22,831 nucleotides of DNA from a virus. Below are positions 9,660-17,583 of this stretch, piece by piece (position 1 is the stretch's first letter; every line of letters starts with the position of its first letter). A model generated the notes under the pieces. The model saw only the letters and a list, made by a program, of their open reading frames with translations, made no database searches and was not told where the DNA came from. The position numbers and the translations under genes are program-made. The stretch covers positions 1-22,831 of IMG/VR virus record IMGVR_UViG_3300020477_000142; one strand, 5' to 3'.

Positions 9660-12263
9660 TTAGGAATCTGTAGATACAGTAGTTGCTCCGTATGATGCAG
9701 AAAGAACACTATTAATTAAAGTACCAACAGTACCACTCCAATTCTCTGCAGCACCAGCCCCATCATTACCAAGAGCAGTTGCTAATAATTGTGTCTTTCT
9801 AGTAGCTTCATTCTCAGCAGCTTTAAATTCATAATCAGCTTTATCTCTTAATTCTTGCCACATCATTGCCATACTTGTTTTTTCTAAATCAAAAGCATTC
9901 ATGGCATTTTGCATATTTACCTGATTTTGTGCTGCTGTATCGGCAAGATTTAATTTTCTTCGCCAATCTACATTAGACATTTCTATAGCTTGTGCATTTG
10001 CCGTATTCCATTTAACCCTTTCAAAATCTCTTTGTGAATTATATTTAGCAATATCATTAATCATTGCTGCATTGGCTTTTGATATATCGGCTTCTATACC
10101 AACTCGTCTAGCTTCAGCAGCATTCTTAGAATTAGCATTAAATTGTGCCATAGCATCTTTTCTTGAAGCATTTTGTAAATCTATTTGTGCTCCTAAGTTT
10201 GCCATAAAGGTATCAACTTGTTGTTGAGATTGTGCATTAAATTGTAAAGAAGCATTTTGAGCAGCTTGATTACTTAACATTCTTTGTTGGTCCATTTGAC
10301 CATTAACAATTCTGGATTGTTGAACATTTGATAAATTTGCTAAGTCCATATTTAAGAAACTTTTAGCATTATTAACTGCTACTCTTTCTCTTGTACCTAA
10401 ATTTGCTACATCTAATTGTGCCCATGAAGCTGCTGTTTGCATGGCTGCTTGTTGTAAATTACTAGCATTAGTAAATGTTACAGTTTGTAAAAATTTACTA
10501 TTACTTAAAGCAGTTTGTTGATCAGCAGTAAACTGAGCCATGTTTAAATTAAAAGTTTTATCAGCATTACTCAAGGCAGTTTGTTGTGCCATTTGAGCAT
10601 CTATTTGACTAGCTTGTGCTTCTATGCTTCGTTGTTGTAAAACACTTTCTTTAATAGTTTGAGCATTAGATTGTGCTAAAGGTGTTGCTGCTGATATAAT
10701 AGCATTAAACAAAGCATCTCTACCAACTGTTGAAGCATCTAATCCTCTTTGAGCTAATAGTTGATTTACTGCTGCAACTGCAGGTTTTGCAAAATTAGGT
10801 ATTTCACCTGATTCCATACCACTTAATAAAGATTCTAATTGTACATTTACTAAAGCTTCATTAGGTAATCCTTCTATTATACCTCTTTCAACTTCGGTAT
10901 ACTCCATTAACTTCTCTTCTAATAAGTCAGGATCATTAGCAAAGTCATTAATATCTTCTTCTGATAGTCCTGCTTTTCTAAGTTGTTTCTTAGCTCTTAA
11001 TACTCTTGGTAAAGTAGTTCCTGCTATTTTAGCAGCAGTAGCTTTTGCTTCAGGGTCTAAAGTTCCAATAACTCTATCAGTTAATCTTGATGCTGCTTCT
11101 TCCTCAGATATAGTAACTCCTTCTGCAGCCATTGTTAAAGACTGTGCTTCTACATTAGCTTTTGACTCTGGACTTAATTCACCAGTAGCAGGATCAATTA
11201 TAGGTGCAGCAGCAATTTGTTCTGCTGTATATTTCCCTGCTGTTATATCGTCAGGGGCTATGACATCAGTAGTAGCAGTTGCTGTAGTAACTCCTTCTGG
11301 TTCTATAACAGGAATAGGTTGTCCTGCTTTAGCATGTCCTGCAGGATATCTTTCGTAATCATCCCCTGCAACATTCATTCTAAAACCACCTGCTGTTGTA
11401 GCATCTAGTTCATCTGCTAGAGCATCTGTTGTTAGTTCTTTTGCTGTTATATCTTTTACAGCAGGTATAAGTTCTCCTGCTTTTTCATGTCCTTCAGGAT
11501 ACCTTACATAATCTGTGCCGTCTGGTGTTAAAACATAACCAGCTTTCATAGGAGCTTTTATAACTGCTTTCTCTTTTGCCCCTTCTCCTGCAGCACCTGA
11601 TATAACATCTTGTGCTGCTGCCTCCCATCTTCTAGGGTCTTGCGTATATTCTCTAGGTGGTTCAATCCATTGTCCATCAGTCCAATTCCAATCATCTCCA
11701 ACACCTTCAGGTCTAACCCATGTATTGTCTTCTGTTAATATAAGACCTGTATCAGGATGTTGATCTCCTATATTATAAGTTATACCATCATCATCAGGAG
11801 GAGGAGGTGGTGGTGGAGGAGGAGGTGGCACATCAGAACCTTTAAGTATCCATACTCCATTTTCCTGATCATATTCAAACTTTCCAGAACGTAGAGCTTC
11901 TCCCATAGTAGCATAACCATAAGCCGTCCACCAACCAACTTCTCTTTCTCTTCCTCTTGTAATAGACGGAGGAGGAGGTAAATCAGACGGAGGAGGAGGT
12001 ACATCAGACGGAGGAGAAGGAGGTACATCTGGTGGATTTGCTAAAGAACCTGCTAGTCCTGTCATGCCTAACCTATTACGATAATCTGCTTCGGTTTCAC
12101 CAGGTTCTTTTTTAAATTGATCTAAATTTTTAAGATTAATACCACCAACTTGTTTAGAAACACGACCACCTTTACGCATATCTAAACGTGCTGGTCCACC
12201 TTTACGATAGCGTAGTTTTTTATTCTTTCTAGCTATTTTTTTATTTTTACTATTTCTTGCCAT
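9660..12263 (-). CDS. large helical internal virion protein with basic, Pro-rich N-terminus
   Basis: An 867-residue virion-type protein in four parts. Residues 1-53 are very basic, with KGGPARLDMRKGGRVSK at 21-37. A Pro-rich region follows at 77-99, plus an 11-proline run at 146-156. Two degenerate repeats of GYVLTPDGTDYVRYPEGH type lie at about 242-268 and 293-320. From about 330 onward there is a long Ala/Gln/Asn/Met-rich helical section with recurring QTALSN and AAQN-like phrases, typical of extended coiled proteins in phage capsids or tails. It begins one base after the stop of the 80-residue gene (TAATATG), with GAGGTG upstream as ribosome site. Ejection-tunnel or core component is inferred from size, composition and place. 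No enzymatic motif is seen. Confidence 0.65.
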   Translation of the reverse strand: MARNSKNKKIARKNKKLRYRKGGPARLDMRKGGRVSKQVGGINLKNLDQFKKEPGETEADYRNRLGMTGLAGSLANPPDVPPSPPSDVPPPPSDLPPPPSITRGREREVGWWTAYGYATMGEALRSGKFEYDQENGVWILKGSDVPPPPPPPPPPPDDDGITYNIGDQHPDTGLILTEDNTWVRPEGVGDDWNWTDGQWIEPPREYTQDPRRWEAAAQDVISGAAGEGAKEKAVIKAPMKAGYVLTPDGTDYVRYPEGHEKAGELIPAVKDITAKELTTDALADELDATTAGGFRMNVAGDDYERYPAGHAKAGQPIPVIEPEGVTTATATTDVIAPDDITAGKYTAEQIAAAPIIDPATGELSPESKANVEAQSLTMAAEGVTISEEEAASRLTDRVIGTLDPEAKATAAKIAGTTLPRVLRAKKQLRKAGLSEEDINDFANDPDLLEEKLMEYTEVERGIIEGLPNEALVNVQLESLLSGMESGEIPNFAKPAVAAVNQLLAQRGLDASTVGRDALFNAIISAATPLAQSNAQTIKESVLQQRSIEAQASQIDAQMAQQTALSNADKTFNLNMAQFTADQQTALSNSKFLQTVTFTNASNLQQAAMQTAASWAQLDVANLGTRERVAVNNAKSFLNMDLANLSNVQQSRIVNGQMDQQRMLSNQAAQNASLQFNAQSQQQVDTFMANLGAQIDLQNASRKDAMAQFNANSKNAAEARRVGIEADISKANAAMINDIAKYNSQRDFERVKWNTANAQAIEMSNVDWRRKLNLADTAAQNQVNMQNAMNAFDLEKTSMAMMWQELRDKADYEFKAAENEATRKTQLLATALGNDGAGAAENWSGTVGTLINSVLSASYGATTVSTDS
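11796..11828 (-). repeat. 11-proline codon tract
   Basis: Eleven consecutive proline codons (CCT and CCA mixed) encode residues 146-156 of the 867-residue protein, directly before three Asp. Shorter Pro runs lie 47-69 residues upstream. Runs of this length stall ribosomes unless EF-P acts (established knowledge). The mix of CCT and CCA shows it is not a simple trinucleotide microsatellite. Confidence 0.9.
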
Positions 12264-12264
12264 A

Positions 12265-12507
12265 TTACTTCACCTCAAAAAGCTTATCAAGCTTCTCTTC
12301 AATCTTATCTAAAGTGTCAAAAACTCTATCCATACCATCTGATAATTCTTTTTTAGTTACATAGTCTTTTGCCATTTCTTCTCTCGTTTTATTTAATAGT
12401 ATATCAAGTCTTTTAGATTCTGATGTATTACTTCTTATTGTATAAAGTAGTGGAGCTACCACCAGTGTTAATAAAATATTCCACATTATATATGGTGATA
12501 ATTCCAT
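12265..12507 (-). CDS. small protein: N-terminal TM helix plus coiled coil
   Basis: An 80-residue protein with one N-terminal membrane segment (about 5-23, PYIMWNILLTLVVAPLLYTI) and a charged heptad-like helix from about 30 to the end (KELSDGMDRVFDTLDKIEEKLDKL). Its start has a strong AAGGAG site and it couples to the large virion gene (1-base gap). The architecture is shared by several small phage membrane proteins (XhlA-like haemolysin accessory proteins, Rz-like spanins, tail-associated TM proteins). Since it is located among virion genes and not with lysozyme/holin, a virion-assembly or ejection role is as likely as lysis. Its function is not recognised. Confidence 0.65.
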   Translation of the reverse strand: MELSPYIMWNILLTLVVAPLLYTIRSNTSESKRLDILLNKTREEMAKDYVTKKELSDGMDRVFDTLDKIEEKLDKLFEVK

Positions 12508-12529
12508 TTAGTTCTCCTTAAATATTATA

Positions 12530-12859
12530 TTAAGAAGGGATTGTATAGCTTTGATCAGGTACAGGGTTTACTACAGGATTTGTAATAACCGAATCAACCT
12601 GACTAGCAAATATATCATCCCAATGTGAAGTTGGGCATAAAGCTTCAATTTGTGATTTAGTCCAATCACCTTTAGCTTTTGCTGTGAAATTAACTGTACC
12701 ATCAGATTCAGTAGCGACTACATACTCACTAAAAGTACTTGTATAGTACGTAGCATCGCCTTCTGAATCGTTTTCATAGGTCATTTCTAAAGCCCACTCT
12801 TCAACCTTACTGTTCTTTTCAGCAGGAATAGCTTTGGTTAGTGTTTTAGTTACTGCCAT
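12530..12859 (-). CDS. conserved-style small hypothetical protein after the fibre locus
   Basis: A 109-residue soluble protein with a good AAGGAG ribosome site 7 bases before ATG. It is beta-rich and hydrophilic: MAVTKTLTKAIPAEKNSK, a Tyr/Thr/Glu-rich middle (YYTSTFSEYVVATESDGTV), then a DWTKSQIEALCPTSHWDDIF segment (about 65-84) that looks helical, and a Pro/Val tail. No membrane helix or catalytic motif is visible. Lying between the MORN-repeat gene and the TM/coiled-coil gene, it could be a minor tail or head component. I do not recognise the family. Confidence 0.6.
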   Translation of the reverse strand: MAVTKTLTKAIPAEKNSKVEEWALEMTYENDSEGDATYYTSTFSEYVVATESDGTVNFTAKAKGDWTKSQIEALCPTSHWDDIFASQVDSVITNPVVNPVPDQSYTIPS

Positions 12860-12880
12860 TTTTATTCTCCTTATTATTAA

Positions 12881-13234
12881 TTATTTTCTAATGCTTCGAC
12901 TTTTGCCGAGAGTTCCTTTTTCTTTTAATTGAAATTTTTTCCAATCGTCAGAACGTCTTCCGTTTTCAATAAGAGTTCCTTTTTCGTTTAATTGTCCATT
13001 TTCATAAAAATGTTCACTTAGTCCATTTGGAATACCATCTTTATACATAGTTTTTTCTTTTACGTTTCCATTTTTCCAATACCAAGTTGCTAATCCATTT
13101 CTATATCCAACTACATTATTTGGTTGATTACCCATTACAATTTTATCAGAAGGTCTATTTTTTGGATGACCAGTTTCATACTCTTCTAAAAAAATTTCAG
13201 TTCCAATTGGTTTATTAATAAGTTCTTTTGGCAT
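12881..13234 (-). CDS. MORN_2-repeat protein (YwqK-like), rearranged at both ends
   Basis: From ATG 13234 this is 117 residues. Residues ~45-93 contain MORN_2-type units: NGLATWYWKNGNVKEKTMY, KDGIPNGLSEHFYENGQLNE, KGTLIENG. YwqK-like proteins of this kind occur in bacteria and phages without a settled function. Two things are odd. The ATG has no ribosome site at a usable distance, while the same frame stays open to the fibre stop and has AGAGGAA just before an ATA codon at 13297; the product may therefore start about 21 residues earlier. The end (GTLGKSRSIRK) is not MORN-like; one frame over it reads KELSAKVEALENN, a coiled-coil end like that of the fibre just upstream. Position suggests a fibre-associated accessory gene, which is inference. 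Confidence 0.65.
   Translation of the reverse strand: MPKELINKPIGTEIFLEEYETGHPKNRPSDKIVMGNQPNNVVGYRNGLATWYWKNGNVKEKTMYKDGIPNGLSEHFYENGQLNEKGTLIENGRRSDDWKKFQLKEKGTLGKSRSIRK
12909..12994 (-). repeat. 23-nt direct repeat, 63 nt apart, inside the MORN gene
   Basis: Two copies at 12972-12994 and 12909-12931 differ at one base in 23 and encode QLNEKGTL and QLKEKGTL. The 63-base period (21 codons) equals one MORN_2 unit, so the copies look like adjacent units. The second unit lacks the usual aromatic-Glu-Asn-Gly phrase before it, and its continuation after GTL is lost. The near-identity contrasts with the diverged earlier units. Confidence 0.85.
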
Positions 13235-13300
13235 CTCTACATAGTAACCAGTAAATTTTAATGTTTTATTATCTGACCTAAATCTTTCAATAAATATTAT

Positions 13301-13307
13301 TTCCTCT
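13301..13307 (-). promoter_or_regulatory. ribosome-binding site without a canonical start codon
   Basis: AGAGGAA on the minus strand lies 11 bases after the fibre stop. The following in-frame codons (for the MORN gene) are ATA, ATA, TTT, ATT, GAA, with no ATG, GTG or TTG in that frame until 13234. Spacing suits the ATA at 13297. A TTG in another frame opens only a 10-codon ORF. This site therefore decides, or contradicts, the annotated MORN start. Confidence 0.5.
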
Positions 13308-13317
13308 GATATTTTTG

Positions 13318-16300
13318 TTAGTTTGATTCTAATTCTTCAATCCTTTTCGCTTGTTCACTCACTTGTGTCGAGAGTTCTTGTATTGCTTTGGTAAGTATAG
13401 GTATTAATGCACTATATTTTAGTGTAAGAGAATGTTCATTATTTGTATCAACAATATGATCATCTTCCCAACCTATAGATTTTTCAATTTCTTTAACTTC
13501 CTGTGCTATAAAACCTGTATGTTTTCGTATTTCTTTTTTAGAATGATCTCTTTCCCCATATTTAAGATCTTCAAAATCATAATAATTAGTTCTATTATCC
13601 CAAACATAAGTTACAGGTCGCATTTGATTGACAAAGTTTAATCCAGCATTATCAGGAAGTGTCTCAATATCTGTTTTATCTCTTACATCTGAACCTGTTG
13701 ACCAACCTACTTTAACAAAAGCATTGGCAATATTATTGTTACCAATTACAACCTGATTATCTGCTGTAGTAATGTTTCCACCGGGAGCAGATGCGTTTCT
13801 TCCAGTTTCTTTACCAAGAGCTATATTATTAGTGCCAGTTGTTACATTTTCCAGAGCTTTATGTCCTACTGCTACATTACTGCCTCCACTGGCAGCACCT
13901 AAAGCAGCATAACCTATAGCAACAGCTTCAGAACCTGTCGTAATGGCATCCATAGCAGTAACACCTATAGCAACATTATAACTTCCTGTTGTATTTGCTA
14001 TTAAAGCATCAGCACCCACAGCAGTATTATTTGCTCCTGTAGTATTAGCAGTTAAAGCCTTTCTACCTAGACCTGTATTTCCGTTTGCCGTGGTATTAGC
14101 TTTTAAAGCTTCAAAACCAACTGCCACATTTATAGTACCTGTGCTATTCGTATATAAAGCATTTCTGCCTACCGCTGTATTATCAGCAGCAGCATTAGTC
14201 GCTAAAGCTGCATAACCAACGGCAACATTACTATCAACTGTAGTTGCAGTTTCTAGAGCATTCTGACCAATCGCTACATTGTAATCACCTGTGGTAATTG
14301 CAGTAGCAGCAGATTTACCAATAGCTGTATTTGATGAACCTGTTGTATTAGCATCTAGTGCTTGATAACCCACGGCAGTATTATTATCACCAGTAGTTAA
14401 AGCTGCAAATACATCAATACCTAAACCAGTATTATAATTTGCTCCACTAATAGTTCCTGTTGTAGCATCTCCCAACATAATTGAACCAGTACCAAAAGTC
14501 TTAGCATCTGATAAATCATTTATAGCAGAAGCACCACCACTTGCAGCATCTTCCCAAGCTACACCACTTCCTGTAGAAGTTAGAACTTGTCCATCACTAC
14601 CCTGTGCTCCACCGACTGTTAAGTTATCTGTTTCTAAAGTTCCGTCAATATCGGCATCACCTGAAATATCTAAACTAGCAGCATCCACTTCACCTGTTAC
14701 TGTTATGGAATCTACGAAAGCATCTTTCCAACGTACTCCAGTAGCCCCTAAGTCAACATCACTATCTGTTTGTGGACCAAAGATATTATCGCCTAAATAT
14801 ACTTGTTCTACATTTGCTGCATAGAAATGAATTTCATCTGCTGTTTCAAAGTCTATCTTAGTTTGATCATCTTCACCAATTTTAATATCTGTTGCTAATA
14901 AAGATGTAATTCCTGTTTGTGCAGCATCTACTGTAAAGGTTAAATCAAATGGATCACCATCTGAACCAGTAGAAGTATCTGTCCAGTTTGTAGTTAGACC
15001 TGAACCAATAAATTTAATTTCTTCAGCATTTGAAATAGAAACTTCTGTACCATCATCATCTTCCATAATAAAAGCTGACATACCACCAGCTTGAGAATCT
15101 ACATAAGCTTTAACTGATTGTTGTGAAGGAATACCTGTTGCACTATCAGAAGACATATCATCTTCATCAAGGAATGCTTTACCATCTAATATATTAAGTT
15201 CGGCTGCTGTAGAACTAACTGCTGTACTTCCAAGTACGAGTTGTCCATCAGGAACTACTACTCTTGCTGCACCTGCTAAAATTAAATCATCTACTGATTC
15301 ATCCCAAAGCATGTATGCACTAGCAGTTGCTCCGAAAAACTTAACATCGTATCCAGTATCATCAACACCAACAGTAACTGTATTATCTATCTGTACTGCT
15401 CCGTCAATATCAACAGCATCTAAGTTTGTTGTTCCATCAATATCTGCATTTCCAGATATATCTAAAGACCCTGCATCTAATTCACCTGCAATAGTTAATA
15501 ATCCACTTGAAGGATTATAGGTAAAGCCAGTATCTGTTTCAGCACCTTGAGAACCTGTTGCACCATCTACGAATATAGGATATACAGTTTCATCAGTACT
15601 ATTATTAGCAGAAGCTGTAAAAGTTGCAGCGTTTCCTGTAGTATCTTGGTTAAGTGTACCAATTACAAAGTCTAATGTATTATCACCATCTTCATAAGTT
15701 ACAGTAATACCTGTCTCAGTATTAGAGCCAACCATAGCTCCTACAGTATCTGCAATAGTTTCGGCTAGAGTAACTCCACCAATAGTTATTGCATCGGCTT
15801 CTAATGTACCATCTATATCAGCATCACCTGAAACATCTAGCGTAGTTAAATCTAACTCTCCTGCTATGGTAACATTACCATCTGCTAAAGTTATTAAATC
15901 TGTATCAGAAGTATGCCCAATAGTTGTTCCATTAATTATAACGTTATCAACTGTTAAAGTTGTTAGTGTGCCTAATGAAGTTATATTAGATTGAGCAGCC
16001 CCTGTTACTGTAGCTGCTGTACCACTTGTATTTCCTGTAACATTACCAGTAATATTACCAGTAAATGTAGCAGTAACACCTGTAGTAGTCAACATTCCTG
16101 TACTAGGATTGTATGTTAAACCTGTATCACTCTCAGCACCTTGCGATCCTGTAGCTCCGTCAACAAAGATTGGGTATACTGTTTCATCAGTACTATTGTT
16201 TGCAGAAATTGTAATATTGTCTGCTGTTCCTGTTGTGTCTTGATTTAATGTTCCAATAACAAAGTCTAAAGTATTATCTCCATCTTCGTAAGTAACTGTT

Positions 16301-17583
16301 ATATTAGTTTCAGTATTTGAACTGACCATAGCACCGACTGTATCGGCTATGTATTCATTTAAAGCAGTTCCATCAACTGTATATGCGTCTGCTTCAAGTG
16401 TACCATCTATATCGGCATTACCTGAAATATCTAAACTTGTAGCATCAACTTCACCAGCAACTGTAACTACACCACTTGATAGTGTTATTAAGTCTGTATC
16501 GCTTGTGTGTCCAATTACTGCACCATCAATTGCAACATTATCTACAGTAAGTGCTGTTAATGTTCCAAGACTTGTTACATTTCCTTGAGCTGCTGTATTT
16601 AGTGTACCTGCTAAAAGTGTAGTAGTTAAAAGACCACTCGAAGGATTATATGTTAATCCTGTGTCGCTTTCTGCTCCTTGACTTCCAGTAGCACCATCTA
16701 CAAAGATTGGATAAACTGTTTCGTCTGTGGAGTTATTAGCTGAAATTGTAATGTTATCAGCAGTACCTGTTGTATCTTGATTAAGAGTTCCAACTGTGAA
16801 ATCTAAAGTATTGTCTCCGTCTTCATAGGCTACTGTTATTCCTGATTCAGTATTAGAACCTACCATTGCTCCAACTGTGTCAGCTATATATTCGTTAAGA
16901 GCTGTTCCGTCTACAGTTATAGCATCAGCTTCGAGAGTTCCATCTATGTCTGCGTTACCACTAATATCTAAAGTAGTTGCGTCTACTTCTCCTGCTACTG
17001 TTAAGACACCACTTGTAAGTGTCATTAAATCAGTATCGCTTGTGTGCCCTATAGTAGTTCCGTTAATTATAACATTGTCAACTGTAAGAGTTGTAAGAGT
17101 TCCTAAACTTGTAATGTTAGACTGTGCAGCAGTTGTTACTGTAGCTGCTGTACCTGATACATTACCTGTAACATCTCCTGTTAATGGACCTGCAAAAGCA
17201 TCCGAAGTTACTGTACCATCAAAATATGCATCTTTAAATTCTAATGAGCTTGTACCTAAATCTATATCGTTATCTGTTACTGGTACTATTGCTCCGTCTT
17301 GTATTCTAATCTGCTCTACTGCTGCAGAAGATACCTCTACAAATACTCCCCACCTATTATTTGTACTATCTGCAACTATCTTATTTAAAAAGTCTAAATC
17401 ACCTATAGTGTGGATATTACCACCATGTCCTGCTGTACCATCGTGTCTGTGTCCTGTTGAACCTGCAGAACTAGATGAGTATGCAAATGCATTGACTAGT
17501 TGATTGTACTCATTATTAAATAAAGCTGCTGTGATAGTATCACCATCACTCATTGAACTTTGTCGTGTATAACTGTATGCCAT
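13318..17583 (-). CDS. tail fibre/spike with YadA-like stalk and peptidase S74 chaperone
   Basis: A 1421-residue receptor-binding fibre. Residues 1-60 form a conserved-style virion-attachment head (ALFNNEYNQLVNAF, then HRHDGTAGHGG). DIDLGTSSLEFKDAYFDGT-type motifs occur at about 106-124 and again near 957. Three long repeats fill about 152-696. Residues ~1051-1265 are about 13 units of 16-17 residues (NTAVGYQALDANTTGSS type), matching YadA-head-like beta-roll repeats. The C-terminal 124 residues are an S74 intramolecular chaperone: SDVRDK gives the predicted Ser1298/Lys1303 dyad, with self-cleavage expected just before Ser1298, then HTGFIAQEV and a terminal coiled coil. The homotrimer should shed the chaperone after folding. 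It follows the nozzle-like gene by 2 bases (GGGAG ribosome site) and precedes the internal virion genes, unlike in T7. Confidence 0.92.
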   Translation of the reverse strand: MAYSYTRQSSMSDGDTITAALFNNEYNQLVNAFAYSSSSAGSTGHRHDGTAGHGGNIHTIGDLDFLNKIVADSTNNRWGVFVEVSSAAVEQIRIQDGAIVPVTDNDIDLGTSSLEFKDAYFDGTVTSDAFAGPLTGDVTGNVSGTAATVTTAAQSNITSLGTLTTLTVDNVIINGTTIGHTSDTDLMTLTSGVLTVAGEVDATTLDISGNADIDGTLEADAITVDGTALNEYIADTVGAMVGSNTESGITVAYEDGDNTLDFTVGTLNQDTTGTADNITISANNSTDETVYPIFVDGATGSQGAESDTGLTYNPSSGLLTTTLLAGTLNTAAQGNVTSLGTLTALTVDNVAIDGAVIGHTSDTDLITLSSGVVTVAGEVDATSLDISGNADIDGTLEADAYTVDGTALNEYIADTVGAMVSSNTETNITVTYEDGDNTLDFVIGTLNQDTTGTADNITISANNSTDETVYPIFVDGATGSQGAESDTGLTYNPSTGMLTTTGVTATFTGNITGNVTGNTSGTAATVTGAAQSNITSLGTLTTLTVDNVIINGTTIGHTSDTDLITLADGNVTIAGELDLTTLDVSGDADIDGTLEADAITIGGVTLAETIADTVGAMVGSNTETGITVTYEDGDNTLDFVIGTLNQDTTGNAATFTASANNSTDETVYPIFVDGATGSQGAETDTGFTYNPSSGLLTIAGELDAGSLDISGNADIDGTTNLDAVDIDGAVQIDNTVTVGVDDTGYDVKFFGATASAYMLWDESVDDLILAGAARVVVPDGQLVLGSTAVSSTAAELNILDGKAFLDEDDMSSDSATGIPSQQSVKAYVDSQAGGMSAFIMEDDDGTEVSISNAEEIKFIGSGLTTNWTDTSTGSDGDPFDLTFTVDAAQTGITSLLATDIKIGEDDQTKIDFETADEIHFYAANVEQVYLGDNIFGPQTDSDVDLGATGVRWKDAFVDSITVTGEVDAASLDISGDADIDGTLETDNLTVGGAQGSDGQVLTSTGSGVAWEDAASGGASAINDLSDAKTFGTGSIMLGDATTGTISGANYNTGLGIDVFAALTTGDNNTAVGYQALDANTTGSSNTAIGKSAATAITTGDYNVAIGQNALETATTVDSNVAVGYAALATNAAADNTAVGRNALYTNSTGTINVAVGFEALKANTTANGNTGLGRKALTANTTGANNTAVGADALIANTTGSYNVAIGVTAMDAITTGSEAVAIGYAALGAASGGSNVAVGHKALENVTTGTNNIALGKETGRNASAPGGNITTADNQVVIGNNNIANAFVKVGWSTGSDVRDKTDIETLPDNAGLNFVNQMRPVTYVWDNRTNYYDFEDLKYGERDHSKKEIRKHTGFIAQEVKEIEKSIGWEDDHIVDTNNEHSLTLKYSALIPILTKAIQELSTQVSEQAKRIEELESN
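13791..14433 (-). repeat. ~51-nt tandem units encoding YadA-head-like repeats
   Basis: Thirteen consecutive units of 16-17 codons, each beginning Asn-(Thr/Val)-(Ala/Gly)-(Val/Ile/Leu)-Gly and mostly ending in Thr-Thr-Gly-x-x. Two units are one residue short (NVAVGYAALATNAAAD and AVAIGYAALGAASGGS). DNA copies are clearly diverged, so the array is old and kept by protein-level selection. Confidence 0.85.
15497..17130 (-). repeat. three long (~180-200 codon) tandem repeats in the fibre
   Basis: Units begin at AAQ(S/G)N(I/V)TSLGTLT: 17130 (residue 152), 16593 (residue 331) and 15999 (residue 529), with periods of 179 and 198 codons. Shared blocks include LTVDN, IGHTSDTDL, LDISGNADIDGTLEADA, ADTVGAMV, YEDGDNTLDF, GTLNQDTTG and DETVYPIFVDGATGSQGA. 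The end of unit 2 carries an extra FTGNITGNVTGNTSGTAATVT segment that also precedes unit 1. DNA differs widely at synonymous sites. Confidence 0.9.

Follow-up and report, generated by a model that had tools for sequence, protein, structure and literature searches.

Exchange of receptor-binding modules between phages is well established, including among proteins that carry C-terminal chaperones (PMC6872550), as is phage mosaicism arising through diverged homology, described for lambda and defective prophages (PMC3945230). In Klebsiella phage receptor-binding proteins with autocleavable chaperones and in the endosialidase family, domains of fibres or spikes with a C-terminal chaperone are shuffled horizontally behind a conserved rest (PMC6872550), and relaxed homologous recombination works in short or diverged homologous stretches, side tail fibre genes among them (PMC3945230). 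Morons and other accessory cargo are small extra genes of deviant G+C content standing between genes that are adjacent in relatives. The locus described here resembles each of these and differs from each. Its fibre also has a C-terminal chaperone, but the border of exchange appears to lie 3' of the chaperone, within the terminal coil, an unrelated gene has been brought in, and an out-of-frame relic is left behind; the homology that we would invoke at the right join is only ~7-10 nt, unlike that in lambda-type recombination; and the extra gene, unlike a moron, sits inside the fibre's coding end. Modular fibre exchange is already known, and what is new is not a system but a well-resolved scar that preserves a foreign gene beside an out-of-frame relic.

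The window, a stretch of 22,831 nucleotides from a viral contig, carries all features of the locus on the minus strand, in the order fibre, MORN_2 ORF, 109-aa gene, and 80-aa gene (Table 1). The fibre is an S74 tail fibre, with the Peptidase_S74 domain (PF13884) at its C-terminus, residues 1298-1366 (47.2 bits against a cut-off of 22). It ends (17583-13318) in KAIQELSTQVSEQAKRIEELESN-stop, and 83 nt separate its stop from the MORN_2 ORF. Capsid similarity groups the virus with the HMO-2011-type marine podoviruses, with identities of 60% to HTVC115P, 51% to HTVC103P, and 43% to HMO-2011. What sets it apart from these phages is the downstream MAVTKTLT gene, for which phage records, Pfam, PHROG, and NCBIfam gave no match and homologues (of 12530-12859) occur in at least 80 viral contigs. 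In HTVC115P, the tail-side gene cluster holds a gene annotated as a toxin-activating lysine-acyltransferase (L215 511-960; MN698247.1 28510-28959).

Table 1. Features at the fibre-MORN locus, in coordinates of the window
Feature	Position	Strand	Evidence or remark
Tail fibre gene (1421 aa) with S74 intramolecular chaperone domain at its C-terminus	13318..17583	-	Pfam PF13884 E 2.7e-12; PHROG tail spike E 2e-71
Present terminal coil of fibre, ELSTQVSEQAKRIEELESN-stop	13318..13377	-	Opens with the left copy of the duplicated coil box (17 nt, 13377-13361)
Segment that relatives lack (new fibre end, spacer, MORN gene)	12916..13360	-	27.9% G+C; empty site in L089/L014
Possible original MORN start region	13235..13307	-	Putative; open frame above ATG 13234, SD-like AGAGGA 13307-13302, ATA at 13297
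MORN_2 repeat ORF, 117 aa	12881..13234	-	PF07661 E 3.2e-10; last codons are out-of-frame relic sequence
MORN-unit repeat ending in GGAACTCT at the join	12909..12931	-	Copy of 12972-12994, 22/23
Relic of ancestral fibre 3' end, ELSAKVEALENN-stop	12877..12915	-	Opens with the right coil-box copy (17 nt, 12915-12899); amino-acid identity to L158 fibre end
Downstream gene MAVTKTLT..., 109 aa, family unknown	12530..12859	-	Directly 3' of the fibre in relatives
Next conserved gene MELSPYI..., 80 aa, PHROG 462-like	12265..12507	-	PHROG

Taken as a whole, the locus is very probably the product of an exchange in which a foreign fibre 3' end together with a MORN gene replaced or split the ancestral fibre end. 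Evidence of the old end is apparent in the tail of the MORN ORF (13234-12881), which ends ...FQLKEKGTLGKSRSIRK-stop, with GTLGKSRSIRK as its last residues. One frame over, the bases of these residues read KELSAKVEALENN-stop, and the overlapping frame, KKKELSAKVEALENN-stop, opens after an in-frame TAA that cuts it off upstream. The first-pass annotation had taken this tail for a fibre-like coil in another frame, and both the frame reading and the in-frame fibre C-termini of relatives confirm it; a base-calling indel is not needed to account for the frame. A 17-nt coil box is duplicated at the locus, as GAACTCTCGGCAAAAGT (12915-12899) in the relic and GAACTCTCGACACAAGT (13377-13361) in the present fibre, 15/17 identical and 462 bp apart, with no third copy at ≥13/17 anywhere in the window. 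The earlier count of 17 matches in 21 was slightly generous, since the best 21-nt alignment tried gives 16. As unrelated 15-17-nt repeats of 82-87% identity are also present in the same 1.3 kb, the repeat alone says little, and the relatives are decisive.

Those relatives place the relic in a working gene. An exact-pattern scan of viral contigs recovered S74 fibres with the C-terminus ...KELSAKVEDLEKQLNNKE-stop, followed immediately by homologues of the 109-aa and 80-aa genes, the 109-aa protein being 53% identical to a relative's homologue among these loci. The fibre of L158 ends in ...KAIQELSAKVEALENN-stop, the exact peptide of the relic, followed by nearly the same intergenic sequence; the coil DNA of the two has three differences, all synonymous in the fibre frame, one of which is a stop in the MORN frame. 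Among 38 distinct coils, differences from the relic fall 71, 39, and 117 times on fibre-frame codon positions 1, 2, and 3, respectively, and a stop interrupts the MORN-equivalent frame in 16 of the 38. The alternate frame is conserved as a true fibre C-terminus in dozens of relatives. GTLGKSRSIRK, in turn, is not conserved, and neither the viral contigs nor the phage records yielded a relative of the MORN gene; the last codons of the MORN ORF are accidental. A scan of the collected loci for orphan coils gave one high match, the window's own (29/30), and no other relic, as places without a long in-frame ORF before them reached at most 24/30.

The site into which the MORN gene came is found empty. 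With 12200-14000 as the BLAST query, both flanks of the MORN segment were found in 34 loci, in most of which, as listed, they are contiguous with an overlap of 17 nt, although many of the 34 are near-duplicates or overlapping contigs and the independent lineages are fewer. In the closest empty site, which is one contig (L089/L014), the left flank (13759-13361) is 77% and the right flank (12915-12257) 80% identical, again with the 17-nt overlap. A search with the 109-aa gene yielded 80 loci, none of which has a MORN match; wherever upstream sequence suffices, the fibre directly precedes the gene, the exception being L128. The first-pass annotation had proposed a search of relatives for sites lacking the MORN gene or holding another gene between the same flanks, and both kinds exist: flanks that meet, and, in L128, an unrelated gene that separates the fibre from the same downstream gene.

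This 141-aa gene of L128 (5574-5999) marks a second occupied site behind an S74 fibre, one without a recognizable coil relic; it belongs to no Pfam family and is present in a single copy in the viral contigs. Upstream of the MELSPYI gene in L010, L011, L022, L024, and L025, other genes take the place of MAVTKTLT, either two ~210-aa genes that by eye resemble 2OG-Fe(II) oxygenases (the one tested has no Pfam match) or a MAQTVAECLTAATDSV gene. The entire stretch 3' of the fibre holds variable cargo.

Base composition also distinguishes the inserted segment, at 27.9% G+C against 37.1% in the fibre flank and 33.1% in the downstream flank. Homology to L089 on the left stops at 13361, and the segment's left part resembles the fibre end of a different phage, L194/L206, at 80% DNA identity over 70 nt across the coil (13396-13327). 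The two coils are different fibre ends, the relic of the VEALENN type and the present one of the heptad-longer QVSEQAKRIEELESN type. The earlier proposal that the MORN gene was inserted between, or recombined with, two copies of the fibre 3' end holds in its core, the insertion, and fails in taking them for copies of one end. A degenerate search for the present coil returned L206/L194 as the only fibre end, the remaining matches being unrelated proteins. At the right join, the MORN-unit repeat stops exactly at that point: both 23-nt copies (22/23 identical) end in GGAACTCT, as the first-pass annotation had noted for the MORN unit, and the fibre coil starts GAACTCTCG.

A sequence of steps can be proposed from these joins, whose structure rests on a single assembled contig. 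In the ancestor, an S74 fibre with the end ...ELSAKVEALENN-stop would have stood immediately upstream of the MAVTKTLT gene, and foreign DNA consisting of another fibre's 3' end and a MORN gene would have replaced or split that end. The left exchange would have fallen within conserved coil DNA, around AAAGCAATACAAGAACTCTCG, and in frame, leaving the fibre whole with a new terminal coil. The right exchange would have used GAACTCT, present both in a MORN repeat unit and in the coil of the old fibre; a crossover on seven or more shared bases could explain why MORN coding switches to out-of-frame fibre sequence. What would remain is the old fibre's stop with the 12 codons before it, together with the next gene's ribosome-binding site, and the MORN ORF would run out of frame into this relic, acquiring the accidental tail GKSRSIRK. 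The first-pass suggestion of a microhomology join agrees with the presence of GAACTCT on both sides, and such a crossover is likely at the right join, though searches of viral contigs, phage records, and genome contigs turned up no donor carrying this MORN gene across the join. The relic, the empty site, the duplicated box, and the deviant base composition are observed; we infer a single event, its direction, and microhomology as its mechanism. Because L089 is the closest match for the S74 part and for the downstream gene alike, the S74 part may be native and the insertion may have been into a native fibre; the present coil could even be the native coil with one extra heptad.

Among the loci, only the L194/L206 fibre end and a generic MORN gene, L214, resemble the inserted segment. 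Protein searches and a degenerate DNA motif found no relative of the gene in viral contigs, phage records gave none at E 0.01 and two unconvincing ones at E 10, and the one match in genome contigs, L214, is a generic MORN protein (27%) from a bacterial MAG and no close relative. No MORN relative adjoining any fibre was found, nor, in the literature searched, a paper combining MORN repeat, bacteriophage, and tail fiber. MORN repeats were enriched in long reads relative to assemblies in a marine long-read study (PMC9238414).

The ORF has MORN_2 repeats above the Pfam gathering score (39.5 bits against 29.6), as do the MORN_2 (PF07661) proteins in general, including LIC20035-family adhesins and YwqK-type proteins, but it is shortened, has no close relative, and lies far below the LIC20035 cut-off (18.6 bits against the ≥250 of the NCBIfam equivalog), so we do not assign it to that adhesin family. 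No toxin-like gene that would partner a YwqK-type antitoxin was recognized beside it, and a single-sequence structure prediction of the extended ORF was too low in confidence to use (mean pLDDT 41). The ATG at 13234 has no good Shine-Dalgarno sequence, and the MORN frame, open upstream of it, has no convincing start; AGAGGA lies at start-codon distance from ATA 13297, where an ATG would be expected and which is possibly the lost start codon. As read from the sequence, a lost start and a shortened 3' end suggest a decaying gene, and its product is probably dispensable or decaying cargo.

Other histories for the locus can be weighed against insertion. A possible one, to which we give clearly less than an even chance, is one ectopic crossover at GAACTCT between a parent with fibre, spacer, and MORN gene and a parent with a VEALENN-ended fibre before MAVTKTLT. 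It needs only one unusual join, and L194/L206 shows that the present type of fibre end exists in another phage, but the first parent was not found, and insertion into one lineage fits better with an S74 part and a downstream gene that are both closest to L089. An assembly chimera of two marine phages is improbable: there is one contig only, from a metagenome assembly, but the flanks on both sides have the same virus family and gene order, and the sequence common to the joins, ~7-17 nt, is below usual assembly word sizes. More doubtful still is a transposon-like insertion with target-site duplication of a 9-17-nt box, as the direct repeats flanking the segment at 462-bp spacing might suggest, for the box copies are not identical and in relatives belong to the fibre coding sequence, the segment holds the MORN ORF and no transposase ORF, and its ends lack terminal inverted repeats; we do not regard it as a transposable element. 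That GTLGKSRSIRK is a genuine C-terminus resembling a coil by chance, through coiled-coil codons in A-rich DNA, hardly deserves credence, since, short as the match in the window is and frequent as chance repeats are nearby, the 29/30 match stands well above the next orphan, the homologous flanks extend into the next gene, the corresponding frame is often stopped, and the empty-site relatives refute it.

Beyond the single exchange, we asked how the coil behaves across 49 distinct relatives. Coil-box identity, a noisy measure because the box is only 33 nt, tracks downstream-gene identity (Spearman rho 0.35, a value reached by 0 of 5000 label permutations) but does not track identity of the S74 sequence just upstream (rho -0.05); downstream-gene and S74 identities are uncorrelated (0.03, 831 of 5000 permutations). 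Since the coil varies with the downstream gene and not with S74, fibre tips appear to be reshuffled relative to the coil and the downstream gene together, and on these sequence comparisons the terminal coil looks like the border where tips are exchanged. The likely reason that the coil stays while the tip moves is that the next gene's Shine-Dalgarno-like motif begins inside the fibre coding sequence, as it does in 36 of 57 distinct loci. We suggest, tentatively and a little short of an even chance, that in this family of marine phages coil DNA is a standing exchange hinge at which S74 tips are swapped, on occasion along with an accessory gene, the coil being kept with the downstream gene because its last codons contain that gene's ribosome-binding site.

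The host that a phage infects is set by its fibre tips. At this host-recognition protein, the scar of one exchange can be read alongside empty-site relatives and a plausible join, and statistics across the family indicate a definite border for such exchange, the terminal coil, which stays with the downstream gene.
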